A DNA stretch of 64,000 nucleotides from Leptolyngbya sp. Lineage in GTDB: Bacteria; Cyanobacteriota; Cyanobacteriia; Leptolyngbyales; Leptolyngbyaceae. The number at the start of each line of letters is the position of its first letter. Position 1 is the stretch's first letter. The stretch spans positions 24,698-88,697 of the forward strand of contig QBMH01000001.1 of assembly GCA_003249025.1 (NCBI GenBank), read 5' to 3'. This document shows positions 50,646 to 53,239 of this stretch, piece by piece. The notes under the pieces are model-generated. The model was given only the letters and a program-made list of their open reading frames with translations. It was not told the origin of the DNA and searched no databases. Both the position numbers and the translations under genes were made by a program.

Positions 50646-52139
50646 CTATAACCCTAAATCAACCCCTACTCGATGGGCACAAGCAAACCCAGAAAAAGCG
50701 ACCGCGTTGAGTCCTTGTCCTGGAAATGTGCTGTCTCCCACACAGTACAGCCCCGGAATTGCCGTGCGGTTAAAGGGCATTCCTAACAATCCTGCTAGCT
50801 TGCGAACAGGAATTGGACCGTAAGTGCCGTCATCTCGTCCTAAAAAGCGGCGATGAGTGCGGGGCGTTCCCACTTCTTGATAGTCTAAATGGGCAGAAAG
50901 ATTAGGAAAAATTGCTTCTAATCGATCAATGATGCGAGCCGCCGCTGCTTCCTTCCGCGCTTCATAGTCCGTAGGTGAAAGTCCCTGCCAAGTTTCTAGC
51001 CAACTGGGGGTAAACGCATGAATGATATGGCATCCACTGGGGGCAAGGCTTGGATCAAGCAGACTCGGAAGCGATACAAAAATAGTCCCTTCTTCTGACT
51101 CTATTTTGTTCCAGTCTTCCAGCAAAATATGGTGGCATTCTGTTCCCCAAGGTAACGCCTCTGCTTTAACACCAAGATGTAAGCTGAGAAAGCTAGGAGA
51201 TTTGCGATAGCGCTGCTGCCACTTTTTTTCAGCCACGGGCATTTTTTCGGCTGGCAGCAATTTTTCAAAGGTATCCCAGCGGGTCGCGTTGGAAACAATC
51301 CGTTTTGCTCGAAATATTTCACCAGAAGCGAGTTTTACACCGATCGCCCGACCATTCTCTTCAATAATCTGCGTGACTCTGGCTTTATATTGAATCCGTC
51401 CACCATACTTTTCTAAGCCTTGTACGAGCGCTTGGGCAATTTTGCCAACGCCGCCTTTAGGATAGTTGATGCCGCCATAGTGTCGATCGCTAAACACCAT
51501 CCCTGCATTAATCATCGGCGTGAGATCGGCTGGCACCACTGACCAGCAAAAGCACTCCATATCAATAAACTTAAGCAGTTCAGGATCGCGAATAAACTGG
51601 CGGGCATAGTCTCCAGCATTTTTTGGCAGATATTTGACCAAGCCTAAACAGGCAAGGGGATGCTGGAAAAACACCCGCATTAAATAGCGTGGTTCTTCTA
51701 AAGACAACAGTTCGATCGCATTTAAGCAATTAAAGACCTTCCAACACTCATCATAAAATTGTCGAATGCCCTTTTCTTCATGGGGAAACCGTGTGATCAA
51801 TTCTTGCAAGAACTTCTCATAATCTCGATGAACTTTTATCTCTAATTTGTTGGGCAAGTGGTAATGAATTTGCACCGGATCGGCAATAGTTTCAAGCTGC
51901 ATATCCACGGCTGCCAAAGCGCGAGTTAAAAGATTGGTGGTGCCGCGATCGCCAAACCCAAACATCATGGAAGCGCCTACATCAAAGCGATAACCTGATC
52001 GCTCAAAGTACCCAGCACTGCCACCAGGGATCACATACCGTTCTAAAACCAGCACCTTAGCACCCTTGACAGCCAACTGAGTTGCAGTGACCAATCCGCC
52101 AACGCCCGAACCAATCACAATGACATCAAATTCTGTCAT
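50646..52139 (-). CDS. crtH: Carotenoid cis-trans isomerase (prolycopene isomerase)
   Basis: About 497 residues from ATG 52139; the track's GTG 52214 adds a Ser/Asn-rich leader not typical of the family. The FAD-binding dinucleotide fold '[29 protein letters not shown]' lies at the start, then '[23 protein letters not shown]', and the C-terminal carotenoid-enzyme block '[22 protein letters not shown]'. CrtH converts tetra-cis-lycopene to all-trans-lycopene in the thylakoid membrane, sharing ancestry with phytoene desaturase CrtI. Upstream lies a promoter and a terminator that may form a leader or an independent small RNA. Confidence 0.96.
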
Positions 52140-52342
52140 GGTCTTGTTTTCAGAACCAGTGGAATTGGAAAACAATTCAGAGCTAGAAGACACAGGCAGA
52201 TTAGGAGATAACACAAGAATACGCTACAAAAAACCCCAGTTGGGCAAATGATTACCACGACCCTTTTTAGTGTATCTGGAAGTGCCCGTTAGCAGATTTT
52301 TTTAGATCAATAACCCCAGCCCCTACTCTCCCCGATTGTTTG

Positions 52343-52412
52343 CAAAAAAATGGGACTAGCCTGCGAACGCTGACTAATCCCACCTGCCGATCCTTCAGAG
52401 AGGAGAACACTT
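52343..52412 (-). ncRNA. Candidate ~70-nt small RNA or crtH leader RNA
   Basis: On the minus strand a consensus promoter (52420-52448) predicts a start near 52412. The transcript would contain a CU-rich single-stranded stretch (UUCUCCUCUCUG) and end in a hairpin with eight base pairs (GGGATTAG/CTAGTCCC, one wobble) followed by ATTTTTTT. No ORF with a ribosome site fits in it. It could be a trans-acting sRNA, CU-rich like Yfr1 but without Yfr1's core motif, or an attenuator ~200 bases upstream of crtH. Confidence 0.6.
52344..52381 (-). terminator. Rho-independent terminator of the candidate small RNA
   Basis: Minus strand: GGGATTAG, 14-base loop, CTAGTCCC, then ATTTTTTT. Eight pairs with one G-T. 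No annotated coding sequence ends just upstream, which is why an unannotated RNA is inferred. Confidence 0.75.
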
Positions 52413-52419
52413 GAGAATC

Positions 52420-52448
52420 AATATAAGATTGTTGATAGGTAATGTCAA
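52420..52448 (-). promoter_or_regulatory. Consensus sigma-70-type promoter for the candidate small RNA
   Basis: Minus strand TTGACA (52443-52448), 17-base spacer, TATATT (52420-52425). The -35 hexamer is exact and the -10 differs at one base, the best promoter match I noticed in the window. Transcription would run leftward toward crtH. Confidence 0.7.
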
Positions 52449-52588
52449 CTTTATTGAAACTATTTCTCAATAAAGACGAGTTGGATATACCTGTGGGCGA
52501 TCGCCCCGCTAAACCTGCTACTGCAAAAATCCACCAAGGGGAAGTATTATGAGGCAATGCTTACAGCCAAAGTGCTATTTCAGCCGTT

Positions 52589-53239
52589 ATGACTCTTCAA
52601 TTACGGGTTTACGTTCCGCCCCATCCTTTGATTAAGCACTGGCTAGCGATCGCTCGAAATGCAGCGACTCCCTCTTCACTGTTTCGCACCTCCATGACTG
52701 AGCTAGGGCGCTGGCTCACTTATGAAGCAATTCGCGACTGGCTACCCACCAAAGATGTCACCCTGGAAACCCCTTTAGCAAATTGTCCTGGCACCTTTGT
52801 AGACCCAGAAGTGCCGATGGCAATGGTGCCGATTCTCCGGGCAGGGTTGGCGTTGCTAGATGGCGCTCAAACTTTGCTGCCTCTCGCCTCGATCTATCAC
52901 TTGGGTTTTGTTCGCAATGAAGCAACCTTAGAAGCCAGTTGCTATCTCAATAAGCTGCCCGATTCTTTTGATCCTCAGACTCGTATTCTAATTCCAGAGC
53001 CAATGCTGGCAACGGGAGGAACGATTATTGCCGTCATGGCAGAACTCACTAAACGGGGAATTGATCCGGCAATGGTACGGATTATTTCGGTGGTGACGGC
53101 TCCCCCTGCCTTACAAAAGTTGAGTGCTGCCTATCCAACGTTGCATGTTTACACGGCTGCGATTGATGAACAGGTGAATGAACAGGGGTTTATCGTTCCA
53201 GGACTTGGAGATGCGGGAGATCGCACCTTTGGCACATGA
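52589..53239 (+). CDS. upp: Uracil phosphoribosyltransferase
   Basis: 216 residues. 'MVPILRAGLALLDG' (flexible/PRPP region), 'LIPEPMLATGGTIIAVM' (PRPP-binding loop) and 'YTAAIDEQVNEQGFIVPGLGDAGDR', the uracil-binding C-terminus, are all family signatures. Makes UMP from uracil and PRPP (pyrimidine salvage). Divergent from crtH. Confidence 0.95.
   Translation: MTLQLRVYVPPHPLIKHWLAIARNAATPSSLFRTSMTELGRWLTYEAIRDWLPTKDVTLETPLANCPGTFVDPEVPMAMVPILRAGLALLDGAQTLLPLASIYHLGFVRNEATLEASCYLNKLPDSFDPQTRILIPEPMLATGGTIIAVMAELTKRGIDPAMVRIISVVTAPPALQKLSAAYPTLHVYTAAIDEQVNEQGFIVPGLGDAGDRTFGT

Follow-up and report, generated by a model that had tools for sequence, protein, structure and literature searches.

A probable orthologue of the trans-acting small RNA IsaR1 between upp and crtH in Leptolyngbya sp.

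Organization of the upp-crtH intergenic region

The window analysed here is a 64,000 nt stretch of a Leptolyngbya sp. genome. It contains upp, which encodes uracil phosphoribosyltransferase (positions 52589..53239, plus strand), and the divergently oriented crtH, which encodes carotene isomerase (50646..52139, minus strand), both identified by open reading frame and synteny. An earlier, sequence-only reading of the region between them had described a TTGACA-17-TATATT promoter on the minus strand and a minimal unit of about 70 bases pointing at crtH, and had offered two interpretations: an independent trans-acting RNA or an attenuator that decides whether crtH is transcribed. The sigma-70-type promoter is indeed present (52420..52448, minus strand), with the -35 element TTGACA at 52448-52443, the -10 element TATATT at 52425-52420, a 17 bp spacer and 11 of 12 consensus bases. 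A promoter scan of a 1.7-kb stretch returned two promoter-like matches against 1.8 expected. As this match alone is not significant, the weight of the promoter comes from its conservation in relatives, TTGACA being invariant in 23 aligned promoters.

Judging from the -10 element and a conserved AGUGUU, the RNA probably starts at A52411. From this putative start to T52344, the last residue of a T7 tract, it measures exactly 68 nt. The resulting RNA (AGUGUUCUCC...CCCAUUUUUUU; 52344..52411, minus strand) has a conserved core in an alignment of 30 homologues and scores 87.1 bits (E = 1.7e-21) with a covariance model. Its 3′ portion forms a terminator hairpin (52349..52384, minus strand), seen both in the fold and in covariation, that runs into the T7 tract (52344..52350, minus strand) to give an intrinsic terminator. 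The predicted folding energy of the hairpin is -25.3 kcal/mol (z = -3.3), and none of 200 shuffled sequences folded as well. The seven T residues had been read correctly, but the 8 bp assigned to the hairpin was an underestimate, as the stem comprises 13 bp plus an inner stem of 2 bp. The hairpin is absent from the output of a terminator scan, probably because of that scan's loop limit of 8.

The crtH start codon (ATG at 52139) lies about 205 nt past the terminator on the same strand, close to the 200 bases given previously, and the promoter scan found no consensus promoter in this interval. Just 3′ of the terminator, positions 52325-52334 (minus strand) read CGGGGAGAG, which in a read-through transcript can pair with the CU-rich region of the small RNA according to the fold. 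An open reading frame of 96 aa (52267-52557, minus strand) crosses the unit; its start is upstream of the promoter, and it was not taken as a gene.

Conservation and covariation

Homologues were matched by blastn in 37 of 58 relatives. The covariance model detected the RNA in 28 of 39 relatives and, under a strict filter, in 102 of 386 genomes of the cyanobacterial phylum, although chance may account for the lowest-scoring among them. There is one strong copy in the Leptolyngbya genome itself, and a homologue is present in each of the five genomes from the genus to which Synechocystis salina belongs. Eleven relatives gave no detectable copy with the covariance model, through either loss or strong divergence.

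In the oriented alignment of homologues, the first 28 nt or so (AGUGUUCUCCUCUC...AAGGAUCGGCAGG) are nearly invariant. These near-invariant or invariant columns make up the predicted target-pairing region (AGUGUUCUCCUCUCUGAAGGAUCGGCAG; 52384..52411, minus strand). The sequence of the terminator stem varies freely among homologues, with compensatory changes, and changes on both sides were found in 6 of the 10 stem pairs counted. The covariation exceeds that of all 500 shuffles and of all slid versions (90.5% of cells paired versus 81.5%), a control that is weakened by the relatedness of the sequences. Conservation of hairpin and promoter in relatives, whose absence the sequence-only reading had named as a refutation, was found by blastn and alignment. 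Since relatives share the promoter and the core as well as the hairpin, the unit is not a product of chance.

Searches of Rfam 15 at gathering and at relaxed thresholds gave no family match at the position of the RNA, only chance hits, and automated annotation therefore misses it. The alignment assembled here could fill this gap.

Variants of the RNA were also observed. Two genomes of one genus (L080:2040-2160 and L081:2015-2135) carry an IsaR1-like RNA in which the seed GUGUUCUCCUCU occurs twice in tandem (AGTGTTCTCCTCTAAACCGGCAGTGTTCTCCTCTC), possibly a double-seed variant. Second matches occur in two relatives, one at L204 (G005:C6:14379-14446, minus strand) and one, a candidate, at L205 (G022:C44:137509-137571, plus strand). 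The L204 copy keeps the core, with an unrelated terminator stem and a promoter that has no TTGACA -35 box.

Fur-like boxes in the promoter region

Two Fur-box-like sites lie upstream of the putative start. One, TTGACATTACCTATCAA (52432..52448, minus strand), overlaps the -35 element; most homologues have a site near -35, and its consensus, TTGACAATTATTCTCAATAAG, can be read as a Fur-type palindrome covering the -35 element. The other is a palindrome, TATTGAGAAATAGTTTCAATA (52452..52472, minus strand), with an equivalent near -57 in many homologues. In a set of 74 promoters, the site closest to TGATAATNATTATCA matched it at 10.7 of 14 positions on average, versus 8.5 in shuffled sequences, with recurring places at approximately -35 and -57. 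The boxes in the Leptolyngbya genome are moderate, matching 10-11 of 14 positions, in a window that holds 46 sites scoring at least 10.

Predicted mRNA targets

The conserved 5′ region of the RNA was tested for pairing with gene start regions in its own genome and in relatives, with shuffled sequences as the control. Three ribosome-binding regions of the Leptolyngbya genome are predicted to pair with it: that of petF (-27.8 kcal/mol, none of 300 shuffles as good), that of Fe-sodB (-24.7 kcal/mol, p = 0.027) and, marginally, that of acnB (-20.2 kcal/mol, p = 0.033). Neither crtH (p = 0.33) nor upp (p = 0.77) showed pairing above shuffles in this genome, five other genes in the window gave nothing notable, and in relatives no pairing was seen for either neighbour (mean z of +0.2 for crtH, for which some start codons were chosen by rule, and +0.35 for upp). 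Both neighbours were consequently rejected as targets.

The predicted petF interaction is bipartite: GAGAGGA by the start codon pairs with UCCUCUC, and TGCCG or TGCTG farther upstream pairs with CGGCA. A Shine-Dalgarno role is plausible for GAGAGGA too, which leaves some complementarity even without the RNA, and the contrast between groups therefore carries more weight than the absolute values. The mean z for petF was -3.4 in relatives with the RNA versus -1.5 in those without a detected copy (p = 0.0015). Across relatives, the mean was -3.1 for Fe-SOD genes versus -0.03 for Mn-SOD genes (p = 1e-4), the two types being set by sequence motif. Some genomes with no detectable IsaR1 still have GAGAGGA before petF.

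A genome-wide search for the exact anti-seed GAGGAGAAYA was uninformative, giving 15 sites (one of which is the small RNA gene) versus 6 for the reversed control. Few of these sites lie at start codons; they precede an MgtE-like open reading frame and one other. The former, a predicted magnesium transporter gene, has GAGGAGAACACC immediately before its ATG (L104:1501-1515), and may be an additional target.

Discussion

We conclude that the unit is almost certainly the local orthologue of IsaR1, a trans-acting RNA of 68 nt; the match is made by converging features and not by alignment with the RNA of Synechocystis sp. PCC 6803. The latter was described by Georg et al. (2017; as cited in PMC6202907, PMC9915242 and PMC7760821). 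IsaR1 is 68 nt long and conserved in cyanobacteria (PMC6202907; PMC9915242), is repressed by Fur (PMC7760821), and base-pairs with mRNAs, interfering with protein synthesis (PMC6753628). Its targets include petF, petJ, petABDC1, hemA and sufBCDS (PMC9915242). According to a 2026 review (PMC13414033), IsaR1 'targets upp and crtH', which is probably a garbled gene location; that these two genes are named together with IsaR1 fits the locus described here. An earlier study described NC-181, an iron-induced RNA of about 70 nt that is predicted to target sodB and may have homologues in very diverse cyanobacteria (PMC3516471); we infer that NC-181 is IsaR1. The RNA is one already known to science, and the local copy is an ordinary and well explained finding.

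That the RNA instead belongs to another cyanobacterial family of similar appearance, such as PsrR1, Yfr1 or NsiR4, or to a new family, is very improbable. In its favour, no Rfam family matches, and CU-rich unpaired segments are common to several cyanobacterial small RNAs, but PsrR1 is 131 nt long against 68 nt here, and the tandem Fur-like boxes, the predicted pairing with petF and Fe-SOD mRNAs and the upp/crtH setting all point to IsaR1. A terminator/antiterminator leader governing crtH transcription is scarcely credible either, even though the RNA lies on the crtH strand a short distance upstream, with no consensus promoter found between, and adjacency is common. Among 77 loci, crtH was found within the fetched flanks in 59 and upp in 57, S. 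salina and a second genome of its genus have the homologue just upstream of crtH, and the order upp, small RNA, crtH looks ancestral. However, as many as 18 of the 77 loci have no crtH match in their flanks, a number that may be slightly lower given that a few flanks, such as that of L021, are short; several of these loci retain upp, and they keep core, promoter and terminator. A position always upstream of and co-oriented with crtH was therefore not observed, and the persistence of the RNA where crtH is not adjacent argues that it is not a crtH attenuator. A near-invariant 5′ CU-rich region beside a freely varying terminator stem is also ill suited to an antiterminator, a single inspected fold of the RNA with its leader showed no rival antiterminator, and crtH is not a predicted target. 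Of the two interpretations proposed originally, the attenuator is thus unsupported, and the independent trans-acting RNA is favoured by class-wide conservation, a putatively Fur-controlled promoter, retention of the core without crtH, and in silico pairing with ferredoxin and Fe-SOD mRNAs.

It is also conceivable, though unlikely, that the IsaR1 gene acts in cis as well, with partial read-through making crtH iron-responsive; this would add to the IsaR1 explanation, not replace it. Same-orientation adjacency to crtH is frequent, and 'actuatons' that join a small RNA to an mRNA are documented for other small RNAs in Synechocystis (PMC5386190), but the terminator is strong, with its T7 tract, and many genomes have lost the adjacency. 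If it is true, such read-through would tie carotenoid isomerization to iron status and would explain the long-lived association of the small RNA with crtH.

In cyanobacteria, IsaR1 is known to switch off the synthesis of iron-rich proteins under iron scarcity. On the basis of the sequence and of published IsaR1 regulation, iron-loaded Fur would, when iron is sufficient, occupy the tandem pair of boxes that covers the -35 region and repress the RNA. When iron is scarce, repression would lift and the RNA would be made, ending at its own terminator, and its predicted mRNA targets would then be repressed. The assignment gives a known global iron-sparing regulator its precise place in this genome and accounts for an intergenic unit that had no annotation. 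Bipartite pairing, kept for petF and Fe-SOD and absent for Mn-SOD, provides a testable view of target choice.

Among known systems, IsaR1 of PCC 6803, whose transcription start lies at 3164320, is the closest counterpart. The Leptolyngbya RNA resembles it as a discrete RNA of 68 nt with its own promoter and intrinsic terminator, and in its putatively Fur-controlled promoter, its wide conservation across the phylum, its predicted pairing with mRNAs for iron proteins including petF, and its link to upp and crtH; at the level of sequence features, with the PCC 6803 RNA taken from its description, no difference was found. PsrR1 (SyR1) is likewise a trans-acting cyanobacterial RNA that acts on photosynthesis mRNAs at ribosome-binding sites, but it is 131 nt long, responds to high light and targets psaL, psaJ, chlN and cpcA (PMC6202907). 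RyhB of enterobacteria and PrrF of Pseudomonas are Fur-repressed RNAs that lower iron-using proteins, including the product of sodB (PMC3516471); the likeness to these RNAs is one of working, and homology is not claimed.
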